Source of the DNA: Thermoplasmata archaeon
Lineage (GTDB): Archaea > Thermoplasmatota > Thermoplasmata > Thermoplasmatales > Thermoplasmataceae
Direction of reading: 5' to 3'
DNA length: 18,395 nucleotides
Assembly (NCBI GenBank): GCA_021799755.1
Contig: JAJYZU010000008.1
Location: 1-18,395, forward strand
Shown: positions 1 to 17,674 of the stretch, in pieces
Numbering within the stretch: the first letter of the stretch is position 1
How the letters are laid out: the number at the start of each line of letters is the position of its first letter
Program-made: the position numbers and the translations under genes
Notes under the pieces: model-generated
What the model was told of the DNA's origin: nothing
Databases searched by the model: none
What the model saw: the letters and a program-made list of their open reading frames with translations, nothing else

Positions 1-1388
1 TCTGGGCGGTTGTTCAACTCATATGCAAGTTCGTAAAGCGCCTTTTCAATACTGAAATATGATACAAGCTCTTTAAAAACATCGCCTTTTCTTTTTAGAA
101 AAACTCCTTTATTGGTATTCTTCAAATACGATTGGAGAAATATTTCACGAAGATGGCGTGAAAGTGCATCGGCATCTCCGCTGGCAATTCCAAGATTTGC
201 TGAATTTTTGAGGGAAAAACTTACCGCATAATCCAGAGAACGCAACATCCCTGCCACATCCTTCTCCGGAAACCACTTCTCATTTCTTTCAAGCATGGTC
301 TTGGATGGTTCGCCCTCAAAATCTATAACATAGAGCATTCCGTTTGAACTAAGAACCTGGCCAAGGTGGTAATCGCCGTGGATTCTCATCTTCAGTTCCC
401 CTTTGAGACTTTCTAAGACCTTTACATTTGAACGCTTAAGCAGGCCGGCCAGTTCCAAAGCAGAAGCAGACATTTTACCAGTACTGCTGAAAACTCTTTC
501 CAGCAGTGCAACCGTATCATTCTGCAGTTTTTCCATTCTGAATGACAGCATCCTGAGATCGTCCCTCCCTGGTATTGAGGGAATAAAATCCTGAAGATTT
601 ACCGTGGACAACGAAAGATGAAGATCAGCGGTCAGTTTTCCAAGATCTCTGGAAAGGGAGAAGCAAGTATTCATGGATAGTTCTCTTTCTTCAGGCATGG
701 TCAGATATCTGATCAACGATTCAGTCATAAGGCTCCAGCAGTCCCTGGAATCAGGAATAAATTGAAAGAGTGATATGAGGTCCCTTCTTGATCCGTGCTT
801 CTCCAACGTGCAGAGGCCAAGCGGAGCAGGCGTGTTCCTGAAGCTATTTCTGTAAAGCTGCAATGGGACAGCGTAATCAGGGTTTTCTCCAAACTTGGAA
901 TTCCTGTACAGCTTGAGTATGTATTTCCTCTCAATGATGATTGAAGTATTACTCTGTTCCGCGTTCACTGATTTTATTTCTGTGACGGCATAATGATCGG
1001 TAGGCATCTCACCGAGTCCAGACAACGAAAAAACTATCGAAGCTTCCGGGCCTTTCACAACTCTAGAATTGATGAAGGATTGCACGACCAAATTTATAAA
1101 CACGGGATCATCCAAAGGATCTTTAAATTCCGCAAGTTTATCGACAATTTCATGTCCTTCCGCTGATACCCGCGAATGACTCTCATCAGAAACGGGGATT
1201 TTCCGGAAAACAGTAAAGTAGGTAGCCTCTCCCTGTGGTTCAAGATCTGCGCGGAAAACGACAAAATAGTAATTATTTTCTTGGGAACCAAGGCACAAAA
1301 GATCGATGACGCTTACATTCTTCAGAAAATATGCCTTGGAGGAGAACCATCTTTTCCCTTTCAGATACTCGGGGAGAATTTTTTCCAA
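1..1388 (-). CDS. mak: Maltokinase (Mak/Pep2), 3'-truncated by window edge
   Basis: Phosphorylates maltose with ATP to alpha-maltose-1-phosphate, the donor used by GlgE encoded two genes upstream. The minus strand is open from 1430 to the left edge with no stop. Seen: HGDYHLGQ at 357-380 (about residue 337), the kinase-like catalytic loop of maltokinases; IDFEGEP at 306-326, the metal-binding segment; EKALYELAYELNNRP at the left edge, a typical C-terminal motif of the family; and GKRWFSSK near the N-terminus. At least 462 codons are visible and only the last few are missing. The start is uncertain: the frame has no ATG or GTG before the conserved region. I placed it at TTG 1388; an ATT at 1430, three bases behind AAGGAGG, or a frameshifted fusion to treS are alternatives. 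The function is secure, the start is not. Confidence 0.9.
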   Translation of the reverse strand, partial: MEKILPEYLKGKRWFSSKAYFLKNVSVIDLLCLGSQENNYYFVVFRADLEPQGEATYFTVFRKIPVSDESHSRVSAEGHEIVDKLAEFKDPLDDPVFINLVVQSFINSRVVKGPEASIVFSLSGLGEMPTDHYAVTEIKSVNAEQSNTSIIIERKYILKLYRNSKFGENPDYAVPLQLYRNSFRNTPAPLGLCTLEKHGSRRDLISLFQFIPDSRDCWSLMTESLIRYLTMPEERELSMNTCFSLSRDLGKLTADLHLSLSTVNLQDFIPSIPGRDDLRMLSFRMEKLQNDTVALLERVFSSTGKMSASALELAGLLKRSNVKVLESLKGELKMRIHGDYHLGQVLSSNGMLYVIDFEGEPSKTMLERNEKWFPEKDVAGMLRSLDYAVSFSLKNSANLGIASGDADALSRHLREIFLQSYLKNTNKGVFLKRKGDVFKELVSYFSIEKALYELAYELNNRP

Positions 1389-1425
1389 TCTAAAGACTAG
1401 GTCTGAATCTGAGAGACCCGTGATC

Positions 1426-3087
1426 TCAATCGTCCTCCTTGAAATCGTTTTCTGTCAGGCTTAGCCAGAAGAAACTTCTCGGGGGCATGGTGAAGAAGTA
1501 AGGAAGATCACCTATTGCAGGGAATTTTGCATCGGTTATGGCTTCCACTGGTCTGAGCCCCTTGAACCTAGAAAGATCAAGTTCAACGTAGGTTGGTCTT
1601 CTTGAAAGGTTGAATATACAGAGCATGTTCCTGCCATCAATGGTTCTTATGTATGCGAGAATCCTCCTGTTCTTGTGCTGCAGAAACTCAACATCTCCAT
1701 GACCCAGAATGTCAGAGAACTTTGATCTCACTCTGGTCATTTTCTTCACCCAGTTTAGGAGGGACGTTGGAAGGCGCAGTTCAGATTCAACATTGACCGT
1801 TTCATAATGGTAATTCGGGTTCGTTATGGGCGGACTGTAGAGCTGTTCAGTGTCAGCAGTCGAGAATCCGGCATTTCGGTCAAAGGACCACTGCATGGGC
1901 GTTCTGACTCCGTTCCGATCTCCCAGATAGATATTATCGCCCATTCCAAGCTCGTCACCGTAATAGAAGATGGGAGTGCCGGGAAGAGAAAGAAGAAGAG
2001 CGTACAGAAGCTCGATGGTTGGTCGATCATTGTCAACTAGCGGCGCAAGTCTCCTTCTAATTCCAAGGTTAAGACGCATCTTCGGTAACTTCGCATATTC
2101 GTTGTACATTATGTCCCGTTCCTCATCAGTTACCATTTCAAGCGTGAGCTCGTCGTGGTTCCGCAGGAAAATTCCCCAGTCACATGTAGGCGGTATGGGC
2201 AGGGTCTGATTGATTATATTAACGATTGGTGCCGCCGATTCCGTAGCCAGTGCAATAAAAATTCGTGGCATGAGCGGAAAATTGAACGCCATGTGGAACT
2301 CATCCTCATTACCGAAGTAGGCTTTGGCATCCGTTGGCCATTGATTTGCTTCGGCAAGAAGAATTGTGCCTGGGAATTCGGTATCCACAAGTTTTCTCAA
2401 CTCTTTGAAATACTCATGAGTTTCGGGTAGGTTCTCGCAAGAGGTGCCTTCTCGTTCAAACAGATAGGGAACGGCATCGCATCGGAATCCGTCAAGTCCC
2501 ATATCGAGCCAGAACCTGACAACGTTCTTGATCTCTTCTCGGACTTCCGGGTTATCATAATTGAGATCCGGCTGGTGGCTGTAGAACCTGTGCCAGTAAT
2601 ACTGTTTTGTTTTTGGTTCCCAGGCCCAGTTCGACATCTCCGTATCCGAAAAGATCACCCTAACCCCACTATATTTTGCGTCATCATCCGACCATACGAA
2701 CCAGTCTCTTTTCGGATTGTCTTTCCCCTTCAGCGCTTCCCTGAACCATGAGTTCTGATCAGAAACATGGTTCAGCACAAGATCTGCAATCACCCTGATG
2801 TTTCTTGCATGGGCTTCAGTGATCAAGATTTTGAAATCCTCAATGGTTCCATACTCAGGCAGGATGGAATAGTAGTCAGAGATGTCATACCCATCATCCT
2901 TGAGCGGAGACTTGTAAAAGGGAAGGAGCCATATTCCATTTATGCCCAGATCCTTGAGGTAATCAAGCTTTTTGGTCATGCCGGCAAAATCCCCGATACC
3001 ATCACCGTTGGAATCATAGAAAGACTTGATGGGTACCTCGTAGAATATTGCATCCCTGTACCATAGCTTGCTATCATCAAGCGGCAT
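1426..3087 (-). CDS. treS: Trehalose synthase (maltose alpha-D-glucosyltransferase, GH13)
   Basis: Intramolecular isomerase interconverting trehalose and maltose; here it would supply or drain maltose for the kinase encoded next. It has 553 residues, the usual length of a stand-alone TreS. GH13 motifs are in order: DLVLNH at 102-107, FRCDAVPYL with nucleophile D204, LLAEANQWP with acid/base E246, and FLRNHDE with D312. The N-terminal GIWLLPFYKSPLKDDGYDI stretch (about 51-69) and RNGVRTPMQW in the latter half are TreS signatures; most family members have FRLDAVPYL where C203 is seen here. The C-terminus PRSFFWLSL closes the usual beta domain. ATG 3087 lies one base after the glgE stop, with a GGGGGAAA SD in the glgE end, so translation is probably coupled. 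The stop is preceded by AAGGAGG, an SD-like sequence discussed in the findings. Confidence 0.96.
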   Translation of the reverse strand: MPLDDSKLWYRDAIFYEVPIKSFYDSNGDGIGDFAGMTKKLDYLKDLGINGIWLLPFYKSPLKDDGYDISDYYSILPEYGTIEDFKILITEAHARNIRVIADLVLNHVSDQNSWFREALKGKDNPKRDWFVWSDDDAKYSGVRVIFSDTEMSNWAWEPKTKQYYWHRFYSHQPDLNYDNPEVREEIKNVVRFWLDMGLDGFRCDAVPYLFEREGTSCENLPETHEYFKELRKLVDTEFPGTILLAEANQWPTDAKAYFGNEDEFHMAFNFPLMPRIFIALATESAAPIVNIINQTLPIPPTCDWGIFLRNHDELTLEMVTDEERDIMYNEYAKLPKMRLNLGIRRRLAPLVDNDRPTIELLYALLLSLPGTPIFYYGDELGMGDNIYLGDRNGVRTPMQWSFDRNAGFSTADTEQLYSPPITNPNYHYETVNVESELRLPTSLLNWVKKMTRVRSKFSDILGHGDVEFLQHKNRRILAYIRTIDGRNMLCIFNLSRRPTYVELDLSRFKGLRPVEAITDAKFPAIGDLPYFFTMPPRSFFWLSLTENDFKEDD

Positions 3088-3088
3088 G

Positions 3089-5017
3089 TTATACTTTCCC
3101 CCTTAAGGCAAATATGTGCGCCGGCCTTGTACCCGGCGTAAGCCTCACATAATTGGCCGATCCATGCCAGGTATATCTGGAACCGTCAAGAAGGTCCTCA
3201 ACAGTGTAACTTTCCCCGTCTGAAATTCCGAACAAACCGATTGGGACGTTCACAGTCGCCTCATGAGTTTCGAGCGGATTAATATTCACTATTATCAAAA
3301 GGGAACTGCCGGTGGAATATCTGGCATATGCGATTATGTTGGGATTCCCGGCCTCAATAAAAACCAGGCCCGACCTCTCCTGAAGGCACCGGCTCATCTG
3401 CCTGATTGAGTTTAACTTTGAAATCAGGGGCTTTATGTTTCCCGGAGAATCCCAGTTTCTTACCTTAATTTCATATTTCTCTGAATTGAGATATTCTTCC
3501 TTGCCTTCAATGGCCTCGTTTTCACAGAGCTCAAAACCGCTGTAGATACCCCAGAGGGGTGAGAGAGTTGCAGCCAGTATAGCTCTTATCATGAAAGCAG
3601 GAGCTCCGCCTTTCTGAAGAACAAAGGGAAGGATATCAGGCGTGTTAGTGAACAGCATTGGTCTGAAGTAGGGTTTAACGTCCTCTGAATAAAGCTCCTT
3701 GAAATATTCCTCGATCTCATCCTTATAATTTCTCCATGTAAAGTAAGTGTAAGATTCGCTGAAGCCTATCATGGAAAGATGATACATCACCTTGGGTCTG
3801 GTGAAGGCCTCGGAGAGGAATATGACGTCAGGATATCTCTCCTTTATGGATGAAAGAAGCCAGCTCCAGAAGTCAAAGGGTTTTGTGTGTGGGTTATCCA
3901 CCCTGAAGATCCTGATTCCCTTTTCTATCCAGAATATCACTATATTCCTCAGTTCATTCCATAATGCATCTCGATCCTGGCAGTCAAAATTGATTGGATA
4001 GATGTCGAAATACTTCTTTGGAGGGTTCTCTGCGTATCTTATGGTGCCGTCAGGCCTGTGGAAAAACCACTCGGGATGATCTCTCACATAAGGGTGATCC
4101 GGAGAGCACTGATATGCGAGGTCCATTGCTATCATGATTCCATTATCGGCGCAGGCTTGCATGAACCGTTCAAAGTCTTTCATGGTTCCCAGGGACCTCT
4201 CAATTGAATAATGCCCGCCATCTGCGTTGCCTATTGCCCATGGGCTTCCCGGATCATTCTTTCCGGACTTCAGTGATCCATTCTTTCCACGCCTGTTCGT
4301 GATCCCAATGGGGTGTATAGGAGGCAGATATATCACGTCGAATCCCATTTTCTTTATGTCCGGTATCCTCCGGAGGCAGTCATTGAATGTTCCGCTTTTT
4401 CTGGGGTTGCTGCCCTGCGATCTTGGGAACATTTCGTACCATGATGCAAATTCTGCATACGGTGGATCTACGGTTATTCTGATCCAGTCGCAACTGACCT
4501 CATGATCCCTTGTCTGGTGTTCAAACATAATTTTCCTGATATCTTCACTTGAGGCAAATTCTATAGCACGATCTACGGAAGCAGATCTGAGAAGCTCAAG
4601 AAGTTTTGAAAGGTTTTTCCCCTCTTCTCCATTAGTTCCTGCAGCTGCATCATTTACGATCTGTATTCCGGATGCAATGTCAGCAGAAACATCCTCCCCC
4701 GCTTCTCTCCAAGCTCTGATCTTCTGAATCCAGTTGGCAAACAGATCTATCCAGGCAACAATCCTGTATTCCAGAATGCCTGCTCGCTCCAGCGGTATTA
4801 ATGCAGTGAAAACATCATTTCCCAAACCCGTCAAAGGGACGGATCGCAGATCAGCAGAACCGGAATTTCTATATTCAACTACGCCAGTGACCAACTCCGT
4901 ACCGTGGGTATAAACGGAACATGAAATCCTTGCAGACGAGGAAACCACACCTTTTGAACTGTATGAAAGATTTCCGGGCGAAGGCAAAACATTCTCAATT
5001 ATTATTCTGTTTTCCAT
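3089..5017 (-). CDS. glgE: Alpha-1,4-glucan:maltose-1-phosphate maltosyltransferase GlgE
   Basis: Transfers maltosyl from alpha-maltose-1-phosphate to the non-reducing end of alpha-1,4-glucan, releasing phosphate (GH13_3). From ATG 5017 it has 642 residues. An N-terminal beta domain (about 1-120) carries the WIQKIRAWREAGEDV helix of the family. The barrel follows: WYEMFPRS, LPPIHPIG at 231-238, HPEWFF, PPKKYFDIYP, FRVDNPHTKP with nucleophile D374, FLSEAFTRP with general acid E403, NTPDIL with D461, and IYSGFELCEN. RVDNPHTKP and the SEAFTRP form separate GlgE from ordinary amylases. An upstream in-frame start at 5050 exists, but the extra 11 residues would lie inside the glgB end. ATG 5017 has GGGAG seven bases upstream, so I chose it. 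It overlaps glgB by 23 bases and ends one base before treS. Confidence 0.95.
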   Translation of the reverse strand: MENRIIIENVLPSPGNLSYSSKGVVSSSARISCSVYTHGTELVTGVVEYRNSGSADLRSVPLTGLGNDVFTALIPLERAGILEYRIVAWIDLFANWIQKIRAWREAGEDVSADIASGIQIVNDAAAGTNGEEGKNLSKLLELLRSASVDRAIEFASSEDIRKIMFEHQTRDHEVSCDWIRITVDPPYAEFASWYEMFPRSQGSNPRKSGTFNDCLRRIPDIKKMGFDVIYLPPIHPIGITNRRGKNGSLKSGKNDPGSPWAIGNADGGHYSIERSLGTMKDFERFMQACADNGIMIAMDLAYQCSPDHPYVRDHPEWFFHRPDGTIRYAENPPKKYFDIYPINFDCQDRDALWNELRNIVIFWIEKGIRIFRVDNPHTKPFDFWSWLLSSIKERYPDVIFLSEAFTRPKVMYHLSMIGFSESYTYFTWRNYKDEIEEYFKELYSEDVKPYFRPMLFTNTPDILPFVLQKGGAPAFMIRAILAATLSPLWGIYSGFELCENEAIEGKEEYLNSEKYEIKVRNWDSPGNIKPLISKLNSIRQMSRCLQERSGLVFIEAGNPNIIAYARYSTGSSLLIIVNINPLETHEATVNVPIGLFGISDGESYTVEDLLDGSRYTWHGSANYVRLTPGTRPAHIFALRGKV

Positions 5018-7193
5018 GATCTTTCTCCCTTTTAAAAAACACTGCAGCAAGCGGTGGGAGGGTTATTTCAATGGAATTCTCGAACCCATGCATTCTTGTT
5101 TGCACCGAGAATACTTTTCCAAGATTTCCCACTCCGCTTCCTCCATACAGGGTTGAATCAGAATTAAATATTTCATCATACACGCCTTTTGAGGGCACAC
5201 CAATGGAATAGTTGCGTCTGACGACTGGAGTAAGGTTAAATACGCAGATCATCGGTTCATCATCAAGATCAGAGAATCGCATAAAAGACAGTACGCTCTG
5301 TGCGCTGTCGTTGAAATCAATCCACCTGAATCCCCTGTAATCTGAATCTAGCCTGTGGAGTTCATCATGTTTCTTATAGAGAGCGTTGAGGTCCCTGACG
5401 AGCATCCTCATCTTGGAATTCATGTCCCTGTTAAGTAAATCCCACTGAAGACCCTCGCTCTCTTTCCATTCCCTGGTTACCGCAAATTCGTCGCCCATGA
5501 ACAGGAGCTTTTTTCCAGGACTTGAAAACATGAAGGAATACGCAGCACGAAGGTTGGCAAATTTTTGCCACTCATCCCCGGGCATCTTGTTGTACATGGA
5601 CCCCTTCAGGTGAACAACCTCATCGTGAGAATACGGTAGAATGAACTTCTCGCTGAATGCATACCAGAGCGTAAAGGTAAGGCGATCCTGATGGTATTTC
5701 CTGTATATGGGATCCATTGAAAAATATTCCAGGGTGTCATGCATCCAGCCCATGTTCCATTTGAAATCAAACCCAAGTCCGCCGGTCTCCGTGGGGGCGG
5801 TGACCTTTGGCCATGCTGTAGACTCTTCAGCCACAGTGATAACGCCAGAATAGTATTCATGAACCTTACTGTTTATCGATCTCAGGAAATCGATGGCTTC
5901 CAGGTTTTCTCTTCCGCCGTATTTGTTCGGAATCCATTCGCCTTCTTTTCTGGAGTAGTCAAGATAAAGCATGGAAGACACAGCATCTATCCTTATTCCA
6001 TCGACGTGATATTTCTCAAGCCAGAATATGGCATTGGAGAGGAGAAAATTTCGCACCTCAAACCGTCCATAATTGAATATTCTCGTTCCCCAGTCCGGAT
6101 GTAAACCAAGTTTTGGATCTGCATGTTCATAAAGATGGGTGCCGTCGAATTCAGCAAGCCCTTCCTGATCTCCCGGGAAGTGGGCAGGAACCCAATCCAG
6201 TATCACTCCCATATTGTTGATGTGGCATTTGTTGACGAAATACATAAAATCAGCGGGTGTTCCATATCTGGAAGTGGGTGCATAGTAGTTGATGATTTGG
6301 TATCCCCAGGACAGGTCAAGGGGATGCTCCATTATCGGCATAAGTTCGATGTGCGTGAAGCCGAGATCAGCAACATAGGGAACAATTTTGTCCGCAAGTT
6401 CCCTGAAGTTCATGAAGCTGTTCGGATCACCTTCCCTCATCCATGAACCAGCATGCACTTCGTAAACCGACAATGGATATTTCTCAAGTTTTTCCATACC
6501 GCGCTTCATGATCCAGTCCCCATCACCCCATTCGTACGAGAGGTCAGAAACAATACAGGCATTCTTGGGCCTCTTTTCAACTTGAAATGCGAAAGGATCG
6601 GTCTTTATCCTTATCTTTTCATCTATTGAGGACTGTACTGCGAATTTGTAGAGTTCACCTGTATGCAATTCAGGAACGAAAACTTCCCATATTCCGGAGA
6701 ACTGGACGTTATCCATTATGGTGATCCCGGCACGCCACCGGTTGAAATCACCTACAACACTTACGGTGATTGCATTTGGTGCCCACACTCTAAAAACCAC
6801 TCCTGGAACGCCTCTTCTTGTCTCCAGGTGCGCGCCGAGGGAGTAATAGCTCCTGATCAGGTCCCCCTCCTTGAACAGATAGATGTCAAAGTCGGAAAGT
6901 GTGCTTCTGAATGAATATGGATCGATATGGCTTGTCAGGTTACCTCTTTCATCTCTGAATGAGATCCTGTAGTTTTCATCAAGCAAACTGTCGTCCACGG
7001 ATATTTCGTAGATATCCGGCAAATCGGATTTTCTCATCTGCATTTTTGTACCGTTGGACAGGTGGATATAAACCTCTCCACTGGCATCTGCCAGTGTCGT
7101 TATTCTTGATTTACCACCGTTAATTTGGAATCTTCCCAGGACGTCTGAGACTCTTTTGCCTGCAAATACCTTCTTCAAATCATTTTCATACAA
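4995..7193 (-). CDS. glgB: 1,4-alpha-glucan branching enzyme (GH13)
   Basis: Cuts alpha-1,4-glucan and rejoins the piece as an alpha-1,6 branch, creating new ends for GlgE. It has 732 residues, typical for bacterial-type GlgB with N1 and CBM48 domains. CBM48 is visible at about 115-210 (GVVFRVWAPNA, GDFNRW). The barrel has YEVHAGSW at 244-251, HIELMPIMEHP, APTSRYG at 305-311, GIRIDAVSSMLYLDY with nucleophile D403, TVAEESTAWP with acid/base E456, and LPYSHDEVVH with D524. The usual GYQxTGY is GYQIINY here. The start is TTG 7193: the frame upstream has only nine codons after a TAG and no ATG or GTG, and GGGGAT lies about eight bases upstream. Many archaea use a GH57 branching enzyme instead, so this GH13 form fits the bacterial-style pathway around it. 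First gene of the leftward operon. Confidence 0.95.
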   Translation of the reverse strand: MYENDLKKVFAGKRVSDVLGRFQINGGKSRITTLADASGEVYIHLSNGTKMQMRKSDLPDIYEISVDDSLLDENYRISFRDERGNLTSHIDPYSFRSTLSDFDIYLFKEGDLIRSYYSLGAHLETRRGVPGVVFRVWAPNAITVSVVGDFNRWRAGITIMDNVQFSGIWEVFVPELHTGELYKFAVQSSIDEKIRIKTDPFAFQVEKRPKNACIVSDLSYEWGDGDWIMKRGMEKLEKYPLSVYEVHAGSWMREGDPNSFMNFRELADKIVPYVADLGFTHIELMPIMEHPLDLSWGYQIINYYAPTSRYGTPADFMYFVNKCHINNMGVILDWVPAHFPGDQEGLAEFDGTHLYEHADPKLGLHPDWGTRIFNYGRFEVRNFLLSNAIFWLEKYHVDGIRIDAVSSMLYLDYSRKEGEWIPNKYGGRENLEAIDFLRSINSKVHEYYSGVITVAEESTAWPKVTAPTETGGLGFDFKWNMGWMHDTLEYFSMDPIYRKYHQDRLTFTLWYAFSEKFILPYSHDEVVHLKGSMYNKMPGDEWQKFANLRAAYSFMFSSPGKKLLFMGDEFAVTREWKESEGLQWDLLNRDMNSKMRMLVRDLNALYKKHDELHRLDSDYRGFRWIDFNDSAQSVLSFMRFSDLDDEPMICVFNLTPVVRRNYSIGVPSKGVYDEIFNSDSTLYGGSGVGNLGKVFSVQTRMHGFENSIEITLPPLAAVFFKREKDHGKQNNN

Positions 7194-7674: not shown

Positions 7675-8244
7675 ATGTCTCTAGATAGTATTCTTGCTGA
7701 GATTGAGGATAAAAAAAGAAAAAATCTTCAGTCTGCGCTCGAGGAATTTAATCATGAAAAGGAAATGAAGGAGAAAGCCTACAATACGGAACTCGAGAAT
7801 CTGAAATCATCCTTTGAAAAAAAGAAGATGGAAGAGGCGGAAAGCATCCAGAGAAGCAGGCTGGACACTTCTACCCTTGAGGCGCGGAGACTTCTTACGG
7901 ACAGGAAGAATGAAATCGTTCAGGATATGCTGAACAACGCATCAGCATATTTTACAGGAATCAGGAGAAGAGATATTTATCCAAAGCTGCTTCAAAAAAT
8001 GGTACTGGATGTCGAGAAAACGTTCCCCAAGGGTGGCACGATAACAGTAAACGAGAAAGACCTGGATTTAATCAACGGAATGTTGAAATCAAAGAACATA
8101 ACAGTTGTGAAGGGGGATGTAGATGGCGGACTTGAAGCGGTATCCAGTGACGGTTCACTGGAAATAGATCTATCTCTTTCGTATCTGTGGCAGAACATCA
8201 AGGAGAACATCGCACTAGCAATATCCGAGAAAATAGGTGAGTAG
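7675..8244 (+). CDS. atpE: A-type ATP synthase subunit E (peripheral stalk)
   Basis: Forms the stator stalk with subunit H, tying the catalytic head to subunit I. The 189 residues match the family length. The N-terminal half (about 5-85) is a highly charged heptad-like coiled coil rich in K and E. The C-terminal half (about 95-185) is the globular head-binding domain, with the pattern GDVDGGLEAVSSDGSLEIDLS corresponding to the family's GG-x-x-x-DG-x-x-x-x-(N/D) segment, and a final helix. The last codons GGT GAG TAG form a GGTGA SD for atpC. No strong SD is visible for atpE itself, so it may depend on re-initiation after atpK. Confidence 0.9.
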   Translation: MSLDSILAEIEDKKRKNLQSALEEFNHEKEMKEKAYNTELENLKSSFEKKKMEEAESIQRSRLDTSTLEARRLLTDRKNEIVQDMLNNASAYFTGIRRRDIYPKLLQKMVLDVEKTFPKGGTITVNEKDLDLINGMLKSKNITVVKGDVDGGLEAVSSDGSLEIDLSLSYLWQNIKENIALAISEKIGE

Positions 8245-8247
8245 TTT

Positions 8248-9309
8248 ATGAACGGTACCTATGCCGGCAGTTATGGAAGGGTAAAATCATCCACAACAGA
8301 TTTTCTTTCAGACGAATTTATGCGGTCACTTATCGCCAGATCTCCTGACGAGACAATACAGGAGCTATTAGAGACAAGTTACAAGGAGGACCTTGATGCA
8401 CTTTCATCTGTCTATAGCGGAAACGCTCTGCTTGAGAACGCCATTAACCGACACATCCTAAAAAAAAATAAGCTTGCGCTATTTGCTCCGCCCCCAGGGG
8501 CAAAGGATTTTTTAAAAATATATCTTTCAAAATGGGATATTGAGAATATTAAGATTCTGATTTCATCAAAGGTGCTTGGGCACGAGGTCAAGGAGGATGA
8601 AAACTTCATTATAAGCTTCCGGGACATACCGATGGGTATTTTCGGAGGAAACATTACACAAGACGAATTCAAGGGGCTGATCGGAATTTCATCGATCGAG
8701 GGTATTGTCGAGAGCCTCTCCAGGTTTCCGGTAGGTGTTGAAATGCTGAAGAAACTTGACGAATACAGAAGGGTTGGAGATGTCACAGTTCTGTTCACCG
8801 CCATGGATACCTATTACTATTCATCGATCATGGAATCACTTAAATTTATAAACGGAGACGAGGAGATCATTAGAAATTACTTCCGTGAGACCATTGATTC
8901 CAGGAATTTCATGGTGCTCCTGAAGGCAAAGGAAGTGGAACTGGACTTCCAGCTTGTCAAGGAAGCTTTGAGCAATGGAGGCAATAATCCGGTTGAGAAG
9001 CTTGAAGAACTTTACAGGAACAGCACACTTCAGGAGATAATGCAGATCCTCATGGAGCGTTTCTCCCTCGCTGGGACCTCTGGAAAGGATGCAATGACTG
9101 AACTTGAACTCAGAATCCGAGACCAGATTTACAACAAATACCATGTTTCACTGTCATCGTCATCTATCTCGATCAATTCCATCTTTGACTTCATAATAAG
9201 GGCTGAAAGGGAGAGGAATGCGCTCAGGTCCATAGTTATCGGAAACTCGTACAGGTTACCGGAGAAAACAATACTGAGTCTTTCGGGTCTTCTAAAATAT
9301 GGTGAGTGA
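8248..9309 (+). CDS. atpC: A-type ATP synthase subunit C (central stalk socket)
   Basis: Funnel-shaped homologue of V-ATPase subunit d, linking the central stalk D/F to the c ring in the membrane. The 353 residues match the family. It is almost wholly helical and acidic, with repeated FLSDEFMRSLIARSP/ELLETSYKEDL-type segments that reflect the three-fold helical bundle; IENIKILI (about 98-105) and the RAERERNALRSIV segment near the C-terminus are the most family-like blocks. ATG 8248 is seven bases after GGTGA, embedded in the atpE end. The gene ends GGT GAG TGA, again giving an SD for atpF. Identification rests on sequence pattern plus operon position. Confidence 0.88.
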   Translation: MNGTYAGSYGRVKSSTTDFLSDEFMRSLIARSPDETIQELLETSYKEDLDALSSVYSGNALLENAINRHILKKNKLALFAPPPGAKDFLKIYLSKWDIENIKILISSKVLGHEVKEDENFIISFRDIPMGIFGGNITQDEFKGLIGISSIEGIVESLSRFPVGVEMLKKLDEYRRVGDVTVLFTAMDTYYYSSIMESLKFINGDEEIIRNYFRETIDSRNFMVLLKAKEVELDFQLVKEALSNGGNNPVEKLEELYRNSTLQEIMQILMERFSLAGTSGKDAMTELELRIRDQIYNKYHVSLSSSSISINSIFDFIIRAERERNALRSIVIGNSYRLPEKTILSLSGLLKYGE

Positions 9310-9312
9310 ATC

Positions 9313-9630
9313 ATGGAAAAAGCAAAATCTGTGGCAGTTCTCGGGGAAAGGGAAGTGGTACTGGGATTCAAACTGATAGGGATCTCGAACTGTTTCGAGA
9401 TCCATGGGGAGAATGCTCAGGCTGAGATCAACAGGATCACAGGCAGAAGGGAATTCTCGCTGATAATAATATCAGAAAACATGATGAAGCACATAGAACC
9501 CAAGGCGCTGGAAAGAATGATGGCATCAACCGATCCACTCATAATCTTCATTCCGATGCCTGGAGGAAGGGAAGAGGAATCTGTTTCAAAACTTGCAAAA
9601 AGAATATTGGGAGTAGACATAGGGAGCTGA
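9313..9630 (+). CDS. atpF: A-type ATP synthase subunit F (central rotor)
   Basis: Small rotor protein bound to the subunit D shaft in the catalytic head; it helps control ATP hydrolysis. It has 105 residues with an alternating beta/alpha (CheY-like) layout: SVAVLGEREVVLGFKLIGI (strand 1 and helix, family signature), FSLIIISENM (about 49-58), and DPLIIFIPMPGG (about 74-85), followed by a C-terminal helix ending ILGVDIGS. The length and the GERE-VVLGFKL-G-I block are typical. The SD is GGTGA, embedded in the atpC end seven bases upstream. The GGGAG in its own last codons serves atpA. Confidence 0.9.
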   Translation: MEKAKSVAVLGEREVVLGFKLIGISNCFEIHGENAQAEINRITGRREFSLIIISENMMKHIEPKALERMMASTDPLIIFIPMPGGREEESVSKLAKRILGVDIGS

Positions 9631-9634
9631 TATA

Positions 9635-11398
9635 ATGGGAAAGATTGTAAGAATCTCTGGGCCAGTGGTTGGCGCGGAAGGAATTGAAGATGCTAGAATG
9701 TACGATGTGGTGCGCGTTGGAGAACTTGGACTGGTGGGAGAAATTATCCGCTTGAACGCGGGCATCGCAACAGTGCAGGTTTATGAGGATACCAGCGGCC
9801 TGAGGCCCGGTGATAAGGTTGAGAACACACATATGCCGCTTTCAGTGGAACTGGGCCCGGGTCTTCTCAAATCAATTTATGACGGAATACAGAGACCGCT
9901 TGATGTAATCAGGGAAACAAGCGGTGACTTTATCAGGAGAGGACTTACCGCTGCACCTCTGGACAGGAACAAAAAATGGGCTTTCAGCCCCACCGCACGA
10001 AAAAATGACAAGGTTGTTGCAGGCCAGATTATAGGGTTTGTTGACGAAACAAGTCTCATAAAACACAAGATTATGGTCCCTCTCGGAATAGAGAGCGGTA
10101 CAATAGAAAGTCTCGAATCTGGTGAATATACAGTAACAGACAGGATAGGATCAATAAAGACCGATAAGGGATCAATTGATCTTCACCTGATGCAGAATTG
10201 GCCTGTCAGGAACCCAAGACGGGTTCTCAACAAGCTTCCGCCGAACGAACCGCTCATTACCGGACAGAGGGTTATTGATACGTTCTTTCCAGTCGCCAAG
10301 GGAGGAACGGTCGCAGTTCCCGGGCCGTTCGGTTCTGGAAAAACAGTGGTCCAGCATCAGCTGTCAAAGTGGGCGGATAGCGACATCGTAGTCTATGTGG
10401 GATGTGGTGAAAGGGGGAACGAAATGACAGAAATTCTCACAACGTTCCCGGAGCTTCAGGATCCGAAAAGCGGAAAGCCGCTTATGGAAAGAACCGTGCT
10501 TATTGCCAATACTTCCAATATGCCGGTGGCAGCCAGGGAAGCTTCAATATATACCGGAATAACAATTGCAGAATATTACAGGGATATGGGATACGACATT
10601 GCGCTGATGGCTGACAGTACTTCAAGATGGGCAGAAGCGCTGAGGGAAATCTCCGGCAGGCTTGAAGAGATGCCAGGAGAAGAAGGTTATCCTGCGTATC
10701 TCGGCAGAAGACTCTCAGAGTTCTATGAACGTTCCGGAAATGCAAACGTCGTTTCGAACGAAACGCGTAGGGGGTCAATCACAATAGTCGGTGCAGTTTC
10801 ACCTCCTGGAGGTGACATTTCAGAGCCGGTCTCTCAGAATACCCTGCGAGTGACCAGAGTATTCTGGGCCCTCGACGCCTCGCTGGCTTCAAGAAGGCAT
10901 TTCCCCTCAATCAACTGGCTCAACAGCTATTCACTTTACAGGGAGGATCTTTCAAAGTGGTTTGATTCCAATGTTTCACTGGAGTGGAGTTCGACATACT
11001 CAGATGCCATGGGAATCCTTCAGAAAGAGGCCGAACTACAGGAAATTGTACAACTTGTGGGTTATGACGCTCTTCCAGAGAAAGAAAAAGCAGCGCTTGA
11101 CGTTGCAAGAATAATCAGGGAAGACTTCCTTCAGCAGAGTGCTTTCGATGACATTGACACATACTGTTCAGTGAACAAGCAGTTTCTAATGCTGAAGGCT
11201 ATCCTGAGCCTTGGGAAAAACCAGTCAAATATCATCGAAAGGGGAATAACCATGGATCAGCTCAGGTCACTGAAAGTCAGGGAAATGATCTCCAGGATGA
11301 AGGAAGTGAAGGAGGATCAGGTGAACGATTACTACAAGAATGTGGAATCGGAAATATCTGCAGAAGTATCCTCACTTCTAAAGGGTGGTAAACAATGA
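9635..11398 (+). CDS. atpA: A-type ATP synthase catalytic subunit A
   Basis: Catalytic nucleotide-binding subunit; three copies alternate with B in the A1 head. The 587 residues are the normal length without an intein. The N-terminal barrel (about 1-75) is followed by the A-type non-homologous insert (about 110-185), then the P-loop GPFGSGKT at 230-237, [13 protein letters not shown] with catalytic E259 and R260, Walker B-like [17 protein letters not shown] with D327, [15 protein letters not shown], and a helical C-terminus. The P-loop is continuous, although orthologues in Thermoplasma carry an intein there. ATG 9635 follows GGGAG in the atpF end, with a four-base gap. The stop overlaps the atpB start as ATGA (11395-11398), so translation is likely coupled. 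Confidence 0.98.
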
Positions 11399-12780
11399 TA
11401 GGTTTGAACTACAAATCGATATCACAGATAAGTGGTCCTCTTCTGTTTGTAGATAAGGTTCCAAATGCTGCATACAACGAGATTGTGGAGATAACCACTC
11501 CAGAAGGCGATATACGGTCCGGCCAGGTTCTGGAAACCAGAAACGGGCTTGCGATTGTGCAGACATTTGGTCCTACAGCGGGACTGGACAGCGGTAAAAC
11601 TAAGGTTCGATTCACGGGAAGTATTGCAAGCATATCTGTATCGGATGAGATGCTTGGACGAATATTCAACGGTCTCGGAAACCCCATCGACCAGGGTCCG
11701 CCAATACTGAGCCGGGAAAGACACGAGATTGTGGGAGATGCCATAAACCCATATTCGAGAGAAGAACCTTCAGAATTCATCCAGACGGGGATATCGACAA
11801 TCGATGGAATGAACACCCTTGTCAGGGGTCAGAAACTTCCAATTTTTTCAGGATCCGGATTGCCGCACAACAGGCTCGCCGCCCAGATTGCGAGGCAGGC
11901 AAAGGTCCTTGGCAGCGGAGAAAATTTTGCGGTTATATTTGGGGCCATGGGAATCACGAGCGAGGAAGCGAACTACTTCATAAACGAGTTCAGAAGCACG
12001 GGTGCCATATCCAGATCTGTGCTGTTCCTGAATCTCTCATCCGATCCTTCCATGGAGAGAATTATCCTTCCAAGGGCAGCTCTGACAGCTGCAGAATTTC
12101 TCGCCTATGAGAGGAACATGCATATCCTTGTCATTCTTTCAGATATGACCAATTACTGTGAAGCACTGCGGGAAATATCATCTGCAAGGGAGGAGGTTCC
12201 CGGTAGAAGAGGTTACCCGGGATACATGTACACCGATCTCTCCACCATATACGAGAGAGCTGGAAAGATAAAGGGAAGAAATGGGTCAATAACACAGATA
12301 CCTATCCTAACGATGCCAGGAGACGACATAACAAACCCAATTCCTGATCTGACTGGTTATATCACCGAGGGTCAGATAGTCATGAGCAGGGATCTGTTAA
12401 GAAGTGGGGTATACCCTCCTGTCAATGTGTTACCTTCACTATCCAGGTTGATGAATCAGGGGATCGGCAAGGGGAGAACAAGGGACGATCATCGCGGTGT
12501 GGCAGACCAGCTTTACTCAGCATACGCAAACGGAAAGGATCTCAGATCATTGAGCGCAATAGTGGGCGAGGAAGCCCTTGGGCCCAATGACAGAAAATAT
12601 CTTCGATTTGCAGACGACTTCGAGAAAAATTATGTGAAACAGGGATTCTACGAAGACAGAACAATCGAACAGACGCTCGATCTGGGATGGGAGCTACTTT
12701 CAAAACTTCCAGAGGAAGACATGAAAAGGGTTAAGAGGGAGCAGATACAGAAGTACGGTAAATGGAAGAAGGATGAATAA
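11395..12780 (+). CDS. atpB: A-type ATP synthase regulatory subunit B
   Basis: Non-catalytic head subunit that forms the nucleotide-site interface with A. It has 461 residues. The P-loop position holds FSGSGLPHN at 151-159, the degenerate form diagnostic of B subunits that do not hydrolyse ATP. Also visible are [55 protein letters not shown], and [14 protein letters not shown], where R351 matches the arginine reaching into the A-subunit site. The start is ATG 11395, overlapping the atpA stop, with GGGTGG upstream. The TAA stop shares its last base with the atpD ATG (TAATG). No anomalies in length or motifs. Confidence 0.97.
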
Positions 12781-13418
12781 TGCCTGGCAGGGATCTCAGA
12801 CCTACAAGAATTGAACTGATTAATACGAACAAGAGGATCAAGCTCGCTTCCAGAGGGCTGGATCTATTGAAGATGAAGAGATCGTCGCTGGTGATGGAAT
12901 TCTTCAAGATAAGCAGAACGGTAAGCGGGATGAGGGAAAATTTAAGGGCACTTGTCACCGAAGCCGTAAGTTCCATACAGGTGGCAGAAATACTTAACGG
13001 CAGCCTTACCATTGAGAGAATAGCAAACATGTCGGCAGACGACTCGTCCAGCATAAAGACCAGGAACATCATGGGCGTGCGGATTCCGGAACTGAAAGTC
13101 AATTTTGGGCAATCACTTGTTTCGTACATGTATCGTGCGTCATCACTTCCAGTCCCTGTCAATGAAGCGCTGAAGAAATTTCAGCAGGTGTTCAACATGC
13201 TCATAGAGGTCGCCGAGAAGGAAAGCTCTATGCGAAAGCTTCTCCATGAAATAGATAAGACCAAAAGAAGATCGAATGCCATTGAAAATGTGCTGATACC
13301 AGAGCTCAAGGACGAGGCAAAATACATAAGGATGAGGCTGGACGAGATGGAAAGGGACACATTTACTACCCTGAAAACCATAAAGAGGAAAATGGAGAGC
13401 CAGAGGGTTGAGACATGA
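12780..13418 (+). CDS. atpD: A-type ATP synthase subunit D (central shaft)
   Basis: Rotor shaft inserted in the A3B3 head, homologous in role to F-type gamma. It has 212 residues. The N-terminal block RPTRIELINTNKRIKLASRGLDLLKMKR (about 7-34) is the family signature, with the TR-x-EL pattern. A long C-terminal helix (about 125-205) ends in basic, coiled-coil sequence (KRRSNAIENVLIPELKDEAKYI), which pairs antiparallel with the N-terminal helix. The middle part is the short, variable region that contacts F. It starts on the last base of the atpB stop. The stop TGA overlaps the ATG of the next small gene (ATGA, 13415-13418). Confidence 0.95.
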   Translation: MPGRDLRPTRIELINTNKRIKLASRGLDLLKMKRSSLVMEFFKISRTVSGMRENLRALVTEAVSSIQVAEILNGSLTIERIANMSADDSSSIKTRNIMGVRIPELKVNFGQSLVSYMYRASSLPVPVNEALKKFQQVFNMLIEVAEKESSMRKLLHEIDKTKRRSNAIENVLIPELKDEAKYIRMRLDEMERDTFTTLKTIKRKMESQRVET

Positions 13419-13585
13419 ATCCCATGAACTATATCAACAAAAGATGGACTGATCGGGCCTACAGGATCAAGCCTGAGGCAATCCCTGTAATAAGGAAATT
13501 CAGGAGAATTATCTCTGCTACCTATGCGCTGAATGCGGCAGCTGTTGCTGTGGTATTTTTCCTGATCATTAGCGGGTGGTTATGA
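13415..13585 (+). CDS. 56-aa single-span membrane protein inside the atp operon
   Basis: Small gene fully embedded between atpD and atpH, overlapping atpD by ATGA and overlapping the atpH start. The protein begins MNPMNYINKRWTDRAYR. It has a basic N-terminal half (residues about 9-31, many K/R) and one hydrophobic segment at about 33-54 (ISATYALNAAAVAVVFFLII) ending SGWL, so the charge pattern predicts a cytosolic N-terminus and one membrane helix near the C-terminus. Its length, overlapping junctions and absence of stops argue that it is real. I do not recognise the family. By position it recalls the small ahaG at the end of the Methanosarcina operon, but I see no basis for homology. It could be an accessory or assembly factor of the membrane sector. 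Confidence 0.75.
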   Translation: MNPMNYINKRWTDRAYRIKPEAIPVIRKFRRIISATYALNAAAVAVVFFLIISGWL

Positions 13586-13902
13586 TGGACGATCTGGAGA
13601 TTGTGAAAAAGATAAAGGAAGCAGAAGGGGCCGCAGCGACAGAAACTGCGAAACTGTCAGAAAAGATAAAAACCGACCTCGAGGCTGTTGAAAAAACACT
13701 TTCGGGAAACCTGCATGAACAGAGAGATCTGCTGGAAAGGGACTATGAGAAATTCATAGAAAACCAGGTTTCAATTGCTCAGAAGAAAGCCGAAACGGTC
13801 ATATCTGAGGCTAGGGAAAAGGCCGGAAAACTCAAACTGAACATGGACGTGAAAGATCTTTACAAAATGATCGACAGCGAGTTGCTGAAATTGCTGGAGT
13901 AA
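13585..13902 (+). CDS. atpH: A-type ATP synthase subunit H (peripheral stalk)
   Basis: Forms the paired coiled-coil stator with subunit E. From ATG 13585 it has 105 residues. Nearly the whole chain is one amphipathic charged helix: EIVKKIKEAEGAAATETAKL (about 5-24), then heptads through QKKAETVISEAREKAGKL (about 70-87), as in the H/G family, and a short C-terminal LYKMIDSELLKLLE segment that would contact the head or subunit E. GGTGG sits five bases before ATG 13585; GTG 13576 and ATG 13582 are possible but less well spaced. It overlaps the stop of the 56-aa gene. GGAG in its last codons lies eight bases before the atpI ATG. The family is diverse, so the call leans partly on operon position. 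Confidence 0.87.
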   Translation: MDDLEIVKKIKEAEGAAATETAKLSEKIKTDLEAVEKTLSGNLHEQRDLLERDYEKFIENQVSIAQKKAETVISEAREKAGKLKLNMDVKDLYKMIDSELLKLLE

Positions 13903-13907
13903 TAAAT

Positions 13908-15839
13908 ATGGTACTGAAACCTGAAAAAATGTTGCGGATGAGGGTGATGAGCACACTCAACAGGAAGGATATCGTGCTCTCTGTGCTGCATGACTTCAAC
14001 GCGATACAGATTGAACAGGTTTCAGGGGACATAAAGGGATCGCTCGGGAGGATTGAGGAAGAGGACTTCCAGAAATCCGTGACAAACGAACTGCAGAGGA
14101 TCAAGGGACTTGAAAATTCGCTTCCAAGAGTTCCGGTTAATGGCAAAAAAGCTTTTGCATCGGTGTATGACACCCTCAAGGAAGCCGCGAAAATAACAAT
14201 TGACAGTGATGTCAGGACACTTAAGCAGAAGCAGGAGGACCTTATGGCTGATATCAAGGACATCAGCATAAGAACAGAGACCGTTGAATTTCTCAGGGGA
14301 TTGAACTATGATCTCAGTATTTTTAATGGGAAATCTACAAAGGCATACGTGATTCAGTCGGCATATCCGGAGGAACTTAGTTCATCAATAAAATCCCAGA
14401 TAAGTGATGCGCTGGTCATAGAGAGATCTGGCGCACTTCTGGCAGTGATTCCGGACCGTGAAGAATCAAACCTTGCCAGGATATCTTCTGAGAATGCATC
14501 TGTTATGAGAATAGTTCCAGAGGCCAGTGGTAAGCCGGAGGAATACCTCGCTTCAATGGCGGAGATTAAAAAGGAGAGAGAGAAGGAACTGGAAGAAATT
14601 AACGCCGCTCTGAAGCAAATCTCGGAAAAACACTTTAGTGACATAGTTCAGATCAGGGAGCAGCTTGAGATAGAGGAAAGCAAGATTGAAGTCTATGAGA
14701 GAATGGGATCGACATCTGAGGTATTTGTCCTGGAGGGCTGGGTTCCAAAATCACGATATGAGACCATGATCAAGACGCTCAACAAGGTCACGGGGGGCAG
14801 CATCATCATAAGCGAGGTTGAGACCAAGGATGAGCCTCCTACCATGTTCAACAACCCGAAGAGGATAAGGGTGTTTGAGTTCTTCATAAGATTCTACTCA
14901 CTGCCCCAGGAGTCTGAATATGACCCAACCCTCATTTTTGCTATGGTTTTTCCTCTGTTCTTCGGCCTCATGCTTGGAGACTACGGATACGGGTTGGTCA
15001 TACTGTTATTTTCCATACTCATAATCAGGAAGCTTGATGGAAAGGCCAAATGGTTCAAATTTCCCAAAAAACTGTCCAATTTTGTCATCGTGATATTAGG
15101 CCGGGGGCCCCTCAGAACACTTGCAAAGGCACTCATACCGTCCTCAATCATGGCGATAATATTCGGGCTATTCTTCGACGAATTTTTTGGATTCCAGCTA
15201 TATCATCCGCAACTGTTCAATGTTATAACATCCCTGTCAAAGCTGCTTCTTCTTTCCGGTTACATCGGTCTCTTCATGGTCTCACTGGGACTGATCATGG
15301 GATTCATAACCGAATACTCCCGTGGAAACCGCAAAGGGGCATATGGAAAAATTGGCTGGCTCATGTTTGCCTGGGGAATAGCTGTGACCGGTCTTGACCT
15401 GATCTACCACAATTTTAACTCTACCGGAAACTATGTAGCTTTGGTCATTGCGATTGCGGGTATTGGCATAATATTCGTATTTGAGGGAGTCCTTGGTGCA
15501 GTAGAGCTTCCATCAATGATCAGCCACATATTGTCGTACACGAGGATTGTGGGTATACTCCTTGCTTCGGTGATACTGGCATACGTAGTCGATCTTATCT
15601 TCATGCAGGATGCTCACTCTTTCCCCATGGTAATAGTTGGGGTTTTTATCCTTGTTCTGGGTCAGGTCTTCAACCTTGCCATTGCCATTTTCGAGCCCGG
15701 AATACAGGGTGCAAGGCTTATTTACGTGGAATTCTTTTCCAAATTTTACCACGGAAACGGCAAAATGTTTCGTCCATTTGGAAAAAAGAGGGTTTACACA
15801 ATAAAGCAGATGGATATTGAAACTGTTGAAAAAGCATGA
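13908..15839 (+). CDS. atpI: A-type ATP synthase subunit I (a-subunit, ion channel)
   Basis: Membrane stator that forms the two ion half-channels against the c ring; the V-ATPase subunit a homologue. It has 643 residues. A cytosolic N-terminal half (about 1-325) with two alpha/beta lobes joined by helical hairpins (for example EIKKEREKELEEINAALKQI, about 222-241) includes VFVLEGWVPKSRYE, a family landmark. The C-terminal half has about seven or eight membrane helices beginning at FAMVFPLFFGLMLGDYGYG (about 343-361). The essential buried arginine is R546, in GAVELPSMISHILSYTRI. The tail has VEFFSKFYHGNGKMFRPF, the usual C-terminal motif. GGAG eight bases before the ATG serves as SD. Last gene of the operon; a T-rich stretch follows. 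Confidence 0.97.
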   Translation: MVLKPEKMLRMRVMSTLNRKDIVLSVLHDFNAIQIEQVSGDIKGSLGRIEEEDFQKSVTNELQRIKGLENSLPRVPVNGKKAFASVYDTLKEAAKITIDSDVRTLKQKQEDLMADIKDISIRTETVEFLRGLNYDLSIFNGKSTKAYVIQSAYPEELSSSIKSQISDALVIERSGALLAVIPDREESNLARISSENASVMRIVPEASGKPEEYLASMAEIKKEREKELEEINAALKQISEKHFSDIVQIREQLEIEESKIEVYERMGSTSEVFVLEGWVPKSRYETMIKTLNKVTGGSIIISEVETKDEPPTMFNNPKRIRVFEFFIRFYSLPQESEYDPTLIFAMVFPLFFGLMLGDYGYGLVILLFSILIIRKLDGKAKWFKFPKKLSNFVIVILGRGPLRTLAKALIPSSIMAIIFGLFFDEFFGFQLYHPQLFNVITSLSKLLLLSGYIGLFMVSLGLIMGFITEYSRGNRKGAYGKIGWLMFAWGIAVTGLDLIYHNFNSTGNYVALVIAIAGIGIIFVFEGVLGAVELPSMISHILSYTRIVGILLASVILAYVVDLIFMQDAHSFPMVIVGVFILVLGQVFNLAIAIFEPGIQGARLIYVEFFSKFYHGNGKMFRPFGKKRVYTIKQMDIETVEKA

Positions 15840-16329: not shown

Positions 16330-17253
16330 ATGACAAATAGAATTATGGTAATAGGTTCAACCGGATTAATAGGCAGATCACTGGTCAGGTTTCTTTCTGT
16401 CGGAGGAAATGATGTGGTGTCAGTCTCAAGAGAACCGGAGAAAGCCCGGAGAATGTTTCCCGGCCTCGTATCATACGAGAAACTTCCACTTGATCCAGAA
16501 GAAATAAGAAAGATTGCTGAGGGATCAAAAGCAGTTATAAATATGTCAGGTTCCTCAGCATTCGAGAAATACCCGGACTATGACAGAATTGTCAGGGAAA
16601 GCAGGGTTGAGTTGACGGAGCTAATATCTGCAGGGATTGCGCTGTGCGAAAATAAGCCGGAAGTATTCATCAACTCAAGCGCAAGCGGATACTATGGCCC
16701 CGGTGGTCCAGGCGACACGTTCACTGAGGAATCACCAGGGGGAAATGACTACTGGGGAAAACTGGTTAAAGACTGGGAATCTGCGACAAGAAAGGCTGAA
16801 GATGCAGGCGTGAGAACAGTGAAAATCAGGACCAGCGTGGTTCTCTCAGGGGACGGCGGTGCACTTTCACAGCTCGTTCCAGTGTTCAGGAAGCACCTTG
16901 GTGGATACATAAAGCCAGGTAACCAGTTCTTTTCATGGATTCACATAAATGATGAGATCGGCCTCATTGACTTTTCAATGCGGAATCGGGGCATATCGGG
17001 GGCAGTAAACGCAACTTCTCCCGGATACGTCACGTCAAGGGAATTCTTCAGTGCAATAGGCAAAGTAATGGGCAGGAAAGCCTCCATAGGAATCCCTGAG
17101 TTCATACTGAAGGCACGGGTGGGGAAAGCCTTCGAGTTGCTAGCAGCTGGCGGCAAAATAGTTCCCGAAAAGGTACTTAAGAATGGTTACCAGTTCAAAT
17201 ACACCGACGTTGAAAAAGCTCTATCCGACATCATTCCCGGGATGAATGCTTAA
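16330..17253 (+). CDS. TIGR01777-type (YfcH/SDR39U1-like) NAD(P)-dependent epimerase family protein
   Basis: Extended short-chain dehydrogenase fold of 307 residues. The nucleotide-binding loop is GSTGLIG at 9-15, VINMSGSS at 69-76 follows strand 4, and SSASGYYG at 116-123 is the hallmark of the TIGR01777 group, followed by YWGKLVKDWE (141-150) and VKIRTSVVLSGDGGAL. FSWIHINDEIG is the conserved post-catalytic block. The C-terminal DUF1731-like end (IPEFILKARVGKAFELLAAGGKIVPEKVLKNGYQFKY) is complete. The substrate is unknown for this family; some members are linked to nucleotide-sugar or cell-division phenotypes, but nothing here assigns a reaction. The 3' end overlaps or abuts the Nudix gene, so the two are co-transcribed. 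Confidence 0.88.
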   Translation: MTNRIMVIGSTGLIGRSLVRFLSVGGNDVVSVSREPEKARRMFPGLVSYEKLPLDPEEIRKIAEGSKAVINMSGSSAFEKYPDYDRIVRESRVELTELISAGIALCENKPEVFINSSASGYYGPGGPGDTFTEESPGGNDYWGKLVKDWESATRKAEDAGVRTVKIRTSVVLSGDGGALSQLVPVFRKHLGGYIKPGNQFFSWIHINDEIGLIDFSMRNRGISGAVNATSPGYVTSREFFSAIGKVMGRKASIGIPEFILKARVGKAFELLAAGGKIVPEKVLKNGYQFKYTDVEKALSDIIPGMNA

Positions 17254-17674
17254 GATGGCAAACTCAGGCAGGAAAATACAGGCAGTGGTGATCAGGAAAA
17301 GAGACGGGAAGGAAGCTCTTCTGGTGCACTATACTCCCCCCAAATCATACTGGGAAACTATAACAGGAAACGTCAACAGGAACGAATCTATTGAAGAAGG
17401 CCTTAAACGGGAACTCATGGAAGAGATTTCCCTTGACGATACACAATTGATCAAAACCTCTTACCTTTCATCTTTTGAATATGAAAAGAACGGAAACCAC
17501 TACAGGGAGGATATATTCTTGGTCGAGGCCTCTTCAAAATTTATCCCGGATATAGGACATAATCCAGACGGAGAGCATAATGCATACGGATGGTTCTCAT
17601 CAGAAGAAGCACTGAAACTCGTTCCCTGGCAAAACATGAAGGATTCCATAGTAAAGGCTCTCAACAGCGATTAG
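17246..17674 (+). CDS. Nudix hydrolase
   Basis: Hydrolyses a nucleoside diphosphate linked to some other group; the substrate is unknown. It has 142 residues from ATG 17246, or 139 from ATG 17255. Both starts are near a GGGATGA sequence and I cannot decide between them. The Nudix box runs from G41 to L63 (GNVNRNE-x7-RELMEEISL), with G41, E47, R55, E56, E59 and E60 in place, so the metal site is intact. The glycine usual near the end of the box is S62. YWETITGNV before it, FEYEKNGNHYREDIFLVEA, and HNAYGWFSSEEALKLV after it resemble the general fold, with the last close to the dihydroneopterin-triphosphatase-like group. The gene overlaps the SDR gene by eight bases if it starts at 17246. It faces the next gene with one base between stops. 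Confidence 0.9.
   Translation: MLKMANSGRKIQAVVIRKRDGKEALLVHYTPPKSYWETITGNVNRNESIEEGLKRELMEEISLDDTQLIKTSYLSSFEYEKNGNHYREDIFLVEASSKFIPDIGHNPDGEHNAYGWFSSEEALKLVPWQNMKDSIVKALNSD

Follow-up and report, generated by a model that had tools for sequence, protein, structure and literature searches.

In the bacterial prfB gene a Shine-Dalgarno (SD)-like hexamer stands just before a UGA stop, 3 nucleotides (nt) from the shift codon, and the P-site tRNA slips from CUU to UUU to reach the +1 downstream frame. E. coli infC is a rare case of initiation at AUU. Overlapping gene pairs coupled by termination-reinitiation are a third arrangement and have been documented in archaea; the coupled pairs of Haloferax volcanii and E. 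coli are co-directed, overlap at stop and start and carry an SD-like motif in the upstream gene (PMC6728339). The GlgE pathway and its enzymes are also already known in archaea, where reports of the complete set of four began with Picrophilus torridus and went on to Acidiplasma and others (PMC6355812). Two of these enzymes, TreS and Pep2 (Mak), form a complex whose structure is described as compatible with fusion, and TreS-Pep2 fusions are reported in 96 bacterial and 6 archaeal species (PMC6509496). The same two enzymes are encoded by adjacent genes, treS and mak, in an 18,395-nt stretch of DNA (the window) from an acidophilic Thermoplasmata archaeon (assembly GCA_021799755.1, contig JAJYZU010000008.1). 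They are best explained as two overlapping GlgE-pathway operon genes, with mak initiated separately and probably at a near-cognate codon, AUU 1430 (or AUC 1424).

The treS-mak junction resembles each of these systems in part. It has the hexamer, the UGA and the +1 downstream frame of prfB but no slippery codon; its relatives have independent starts and no fused product is known. To our knowledge the archaeal host has no RF2. The AUU start with SD help proposed for mak recalls infC, whereas mak is an archaeal, overlapping operon gene with no known autoregulation and its AUU start is putative. Compared with the coupled pairs, which it matches in direction, overlap and SD-like motif, the treS-mak overlap lacks ATG, GTG and TTG, and its coupling is putative. 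Unlike the fusion enzymes, TreS and Mak occupy two separate reading frames in the window. Coordinates below are window positions, and treS, mak, glgE and glgB all lie on the minus strand.

1..1430, minus strand: mak, maltokinase, read from ATT 1430; 476 codons, the gene running past the window edge (PF01636, homologues P0001-P0004)
1386..1388, minus strand: TTG, the first canonical start codon that mak has in frame; the W of GKRWF follows 13 codons later
1422..1424, minus strand: ATC, a possible alternative to ATT and likewise non-canonical, spaced 9 nt from AAGGAGG
1426..1428, minus strand: TGA, treS stop, read from the sequence
1426..3087, minus strand: treS, maltose alpha-D-glucosyltransferase (trehalose synthase), 553 aa, ending ...ENDFKEDD (TIGR02456)
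1428..1430, minus strand: ATT, putative and most likely mak start, sharing one base with the treS TGA, 3 nt after AAGGAGG
1431..1433, minus strand: ACG, at the site of the mak ATG (ATG ATT GAT) in the related loci L010-L013 and L026
1434..1440, minus strand: AAGGAGG, complementary to the 16S rRNA tail, within the treS coding end

Along the minus strand the junction runs ...AAAACGATTTC, then AAGGAGG (1440-1434), ACG (1433-1431) and ATT (1430-1428). The treS frame ends AAG GAG GAC GAT TGA (1440-1426), with the stop at 1428-1426, and is followed by GAG ATC ACG GGT. The mak frame is +1 relative to treS, is open after a TGA at 1457-1455, and reads TGA CAG AAA ACG ATT TCA AGG AGG ACG ATT GAG ATC ACG GGT ... 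AGA TTG(1388), without ATG, GTG or TTG ahead of TTG 1388-1386. An earlier note on this DNA had described the TreS tail, the +1 frame and the lack of ATG or GTG before GKRWF correctly. Omitting the T of the treS TGA leads into the mak frame; this extra T is also present in the nearest genome, G001 (a 1.2 Mb assembly, 77% complete), which is identical to the window over 532-3200 and possibly derives from the same source data. No open reading frame (ORF) holds both the TreS and the Mak domain, the TGA separating them in the window and in G001. If ATT 1430 is the start, Mak is predicted to begin MEITGLSDSDLVFR...

The closest relatives in a scan with treS are Thermoplasmata metagenome-assembled genomes, with bacteria at 56-62% identity also matched. 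The junction was read in 31 Thermoplasmatales-type relatives in which mak adjoins treS. Left out were loci without mak (L003, L009), one ending within treS (L050), a second contig from the genome of L028 (L047), the loci of G001 itself (L001, L002) and six genomes with matches but no locus. A treS stop precedes mak in all 31, gene order is conserved, and stop and start overlap or nearly do so; ATT 1430, if it is the start, shares one base of the TGA. The register of mak relative to treS is +1 in 23 relatives, +2 in seven and 0 in one (L049, with a gap). The overlap of L010-L013 and L026 reads GAT GAT TGA in the treS frame and ATG ATT GAT at the mak start, where the window has GAC GAT TGA and ACG ATT GAG; the GAT/GAC difference is silent in TreS. 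Two loci of genus g10, L015 and L019, have GTG AGG, then ACG or ATA, then ATT ACT in the mak frame, so the ancestral start was not necessarily the ATG of L010.

A canonical start codon lies 19-32 codons ahead of the W of RW[FY] in 35 of 35 distinct relatives, some of which are closely related to each other and not independent. The count started from 81 loci including the window; removal of five without a mak match, one without RW[FY] (L049) and 39 repeats left 36. The window has a single canonical codon, 13 before the W, and none at 19-32, so that a canonical codon is lacking where the orthologues start, a feature of non-AUG initiation. The chance that 14 random codons hold no canonical start is 45%. 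The window's lack is therefore not improbable on its own, and it is the unanimity of the relatives that reflects constraint. The absence of a canonical mak start in this lineage is well supported. Separately, one relative (G049, loci L096/L013) has three TGA codons within mak, in a seemingly out-of-frame stretch between two ambiguous codons; this is probably an assembly fault.

Homologous proteins suggest that the codons ahead of TTG 1388 are coding. A protein search matched P0001 (this species, 479 aa from TTG 1388, 40 member sequences) and P0002, P0003 and P0004 at 80%, 53% and 52% identity. The start of P0003, MTSRRTIKIKGFADQGLVKQIESGLP, matches the window mak frame TISRRTIEITGLSDSDLVFRLEKILP. 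From ATT 1430 to TTG 1388, 6 of 14 residues are identical to P0003 (shuffle p ~1e-5, binomial ~9e-5, in this one comparison), and P0003 has Ile at the position of TTG 1388; coding constraint thus reaches upstream of the first canonical codon in the single pair compared. An AlphaFold2 model of mak read from ATT, built with 66 sequences, has a mean predicted local distance difference test score (pLDDT) of 87.3. Residues 1-7 score below 50, and a helix is predicted at 9-24, the block 11-20 having a mean of 91. TTG 1388 is residue 15, and a start there would remove the first six residues of this helix. Conserved in P0003 and part of a predicted helix, the codons from 1430 to 1388 look coding. A 70-residue N-terminal truncation of the mycobacterial enzyme reduces its activity and its affinity to TreS (PMC6509496); as a parallel for the mak N-terminus this is only suggestive, the cut here being much shorter. 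The junctions of P0002-P0004 were read from protein only, their DNA not being found by the treS scan, by a mak search of 77 family genomes, or in three locus genomes and viral contigs. The protein sequence SRRTIK suggests that P0003 retains AAGGAGGACGATT, and no matching tail for its TreS partner was present among the 120 TreS listed. P0004 is annotated only from a Met far inside the gene; perhaps its gene caller, too, had no upstream start to use.

The choice among start codons turns partly on AAGGAGG. The 16S rRNA of G001 ends ...GGATCACCTCCT, to which AAGGAGG is complementary, and the motif can therefore pair as an SD. Alone it is weak evidence: Lys-Glu-Asp yields AAGGAGG whenever Lys is encoded by AAG (as in 55% of cases) and Glu by GAG (45%), and of 280 conserved genes five, treS among them, carry AGGAGG in their final 15 nt. 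SD spacing was assessed in 174 G001 genes whose start is conserved in G002 (142 ATG, 16 GTG and 16 TTG). They gave 53 SD matches against 17 in a control region, so part of the 53 is chance. A published statement speaks against ACG as a start, which leaves AUU and AUC. AUU is provisionally ranked ahead of AUC because it abuts the treS stop and because of a comparable case in tgtA; either codon would fit the evidence.

The tgtA case came from a search for start-less genes in G001 (0.95 Mb) against part of G002 (0.67 Mb); with shadow ORFs counted, it covered 402 matched ORFs of 50 codons or more after deduplication. It flagged 51 ORFs, and after overlap removal 41 in G001 and 35 in G002, most of which are, by eye, shadow ORFs or alignments extending past a good start. 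The clear start-less case in G001 was judged, from its sequence, to be tgtA (L116:6832-8754). It reads CTG ATT GAG ATA CTG CAC where G002 and G003 have ATA ATG GAA, with ATT in place of their ATG and no ATG, GTG or TTG before the conserved GxAR motif. A match to tgtA was present in 69 other family genomes; in the loci of 29 that were examined, a canonical codon lies upstream of the motif in 29 of 29 by an alignment-based count, and in G001 there is none. A bolder reading, somewhat less likely than not, is that the species uses AUU as a working start codon in several genes (mak and tgtA) and that treS-mak is a native archaeal example of SD-assisted AUU reinitiation. No native archaeal AUU start was found in a limited search of open-licence literature covering titles and partial abstracts. 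No unusual initiator tRNA was seen in the 60 of 82 G001 loci scanned, which held two tRNA-Met with a CAT anticodon.

The same search left three possible start-less cases in G002. An ORF resembling ribosomal protein eL24 by eye (L206:6676-6882) begins with ACG, unless a single base next to an ATG has been deleted, and two others, L198 (minus strand, RimI-like by eye) and L207:17748-17909 (54 codons), have CTG near the ATG or TTG of G001. An MFS-type ORF of G001 (a3581) was also among those flagged. Matches to tgtA in two species of one genus (G051:C44 and G059:C10) contain one in-frame TAG.

Several observations weigh against initiation of mak at AUU 1430. P0001 is annotated from TTG 1388 and P0002 from the same place, and P0003 is annotated from six codons further upstream, inside the treS overlap. 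A spacing of 3 nt, as between AAGGAGG and ATT, occurs in 1 of the 53 SD matches, and 9 nt, as from AAGGAGG to ATC, is the commonest (9 of 53), so that spacing favours AUC over AUU. In tgtA, the CTG one codon before ATT is an alternative start. A review of archaeal initiation gives, in its accessible text, AUG, GUG and UUG only (PMC7531240), and a role in discriminating against non-canonical starts is ascribed to aIF1 (PMC6237735).

With separate initiation of mak, ribosomes would finish TreS at TGA 1428-1426, and reinitiation on mak in the overlap would fall to the same ribosome or to a small subunit retained at AAGGAGG. SD-assisted termination-reinitiation would then be the most likely route to mak, and AUU 1430, in a one-base overlap with the stop and guided by AAGGAGG, its probable start. 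In the relatives read, an ATG, GTG or TTG is available to mak inside or abutting the treS tail; this lineage no longer has that codon. If the AUU start is real, start selection in archaea is looser than the AUG/GUG/UUG rule by which gene callers work, and Mak, like some other proteins of the group, has been annotated with the wrong N-terminus. The junction also shows how overlapping genes can mimic the signal of a programmed frameshift: AAGGAGGAC can arise from a Lys-Glu-Asp-Asp tail, and the downstream frame looks startless once its start codon has gone.

Both ATT 1430 and TTG 1388 had been listed as starts in the earlier note, and the first is the better supported. Initiation at TTG 1388 would give an N-terminus about 14 residues shorter and leave the codons from the treS stop to 1388 now untranslated. 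TTG is an ordinary archaeal start, used at 16 of 174 conserved starts in G001, and the annotations of P0001 and P0002 (80% identical) agree with it. It is unlikely all the same: it lies only 13 codons before RW[FY], where all 35 relatives have a canonical codon at 19-32, the 14 residues upstream of it are conserved with P0003, it would cut the predicted helix 9-24, and the preceding 15 nt show no SD. Conservation and the predicted fold both agree better with ATT 1430.

A further alternative is that mak has lost its start, is expressed poorly or not at all and is decaying, in line with its absence from sister species, or that the assemblies have a sequencing error where mak starts. Two members of the same genus, G002 and G003, carry treS and show no match to mak or glgE (assemblies 96% and 84% complete, respectively). 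The frame of mak is nevertheless open over 476 codons, P0002 (80% identical) is intact and P0001 represents 40 member sequences; as for an error, G001, possibly the same data, agrees with the window. Such loss or error is improbable. The treS of these two species (loci L032 and L035) is 76-77% identical, and no glgE-sized ORF lies beside it there. An apparent break of mak in G001 was rejected: the scaffold has a stretch of N at this point, followed by a different gene that looks GlgX-like by eye.

The earlier note had likened the junction to prfB: AAGGAGG would prompt a programmed +1 shift at GAT TGA, so that both TreS and a TreS-Mak fusion are made. The arrangement AGGAGG, 2 nt, GAT as last sense codon, UGA stop does fit, and TreS-Pep2 fusions are reported in bacteria and archaea (PMC6509496). 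The relatives give the very result that the note had named as arguing against recoding: mak is a separate gene in them, mostly in the same register, and a canonical start is available in 35 of 35. The note had itself objected that the GAT-decoding tRNA would re-pair poorly, and indeed tRNA-Asp moved from GAU to AUU mismatches at the first two bases and cannot re-pair. No unusual RNA structure is present at the junction, where folding is no better than in shuffles (z +0.68). All 14 TreS proteins at 95-100% identity (P0121-P0134, of which the nine variants P0121-P0129 have no source label) end ...ENDFKEDD at the protein level, in a search restricted to proteins of up to ~968 aa. A query joining TreS and Mak, with scoring confined to residues 540-1028 and proteins of at least ~565 aa admitted, returned no fused match above 32% identity among the 120 listed of 8000 scored, the best-scoring having 30%; only short-word candidates entered this search, and absence from it is not proof. 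As proven recoding in archaea, two papers name selenocysteine/pyrrolysine (Sec/Pyl) readthrough and -1 frameshifting (PMC8037382; PMC8211752). A +1 frameshift is apparently present in one haloarchaeal virus and frameshifting has been suggested for a magnesium chelatase (PMC8211752), and for cellular genes of archaea the accessible text of these two papers gives no case of programmed +1 frameshifting as proven. On the relatives, the lack of listed fused relatives, the tRNA pairing and the RNA folding, programmed frameshifting was rejected as very improbable. A single-base indel and a recent fission of a fused gene, also raised in the note, are dismissed by the +1 register kept in 23 of the 31 relatives.

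The genes of the operon were identified with Pfam and NCBIfam profiles. The treS product scores 925.8 bits with TIGR02456, above the cut-off of 678.35. The mak product scores 26.8 bits with PF01636 (cut-off 23.2) and 222.6 bits with TIGR02457, below the cut-off of 375.05 (over residues 2-462 of a protein truncated at the edge of the window); it was called Mak from PF01636, synteny and maltokinase matches in the PDB. Two further genes lie upstream of treS.

3089..5017, minus strand: glgE (PF11896, PF21702), with ATG at 5017
4995..7193, minus strand: glgB, branching enzyme (NF003811, 958.9 bits against a cut-off of 741)

The glgE ATG at 5017 sits inside glgB, the two genes overlapping by 23 nt (4995-5017). 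On the plus strand, 7675-15839 holds a run of genes that resembles, by eye, an A-type ATP synthase operon. Downstream of it are an epimerase-like gene (16330-17253) and a NUDIX-like gene (17246-17674), both likewise recognized by eye.

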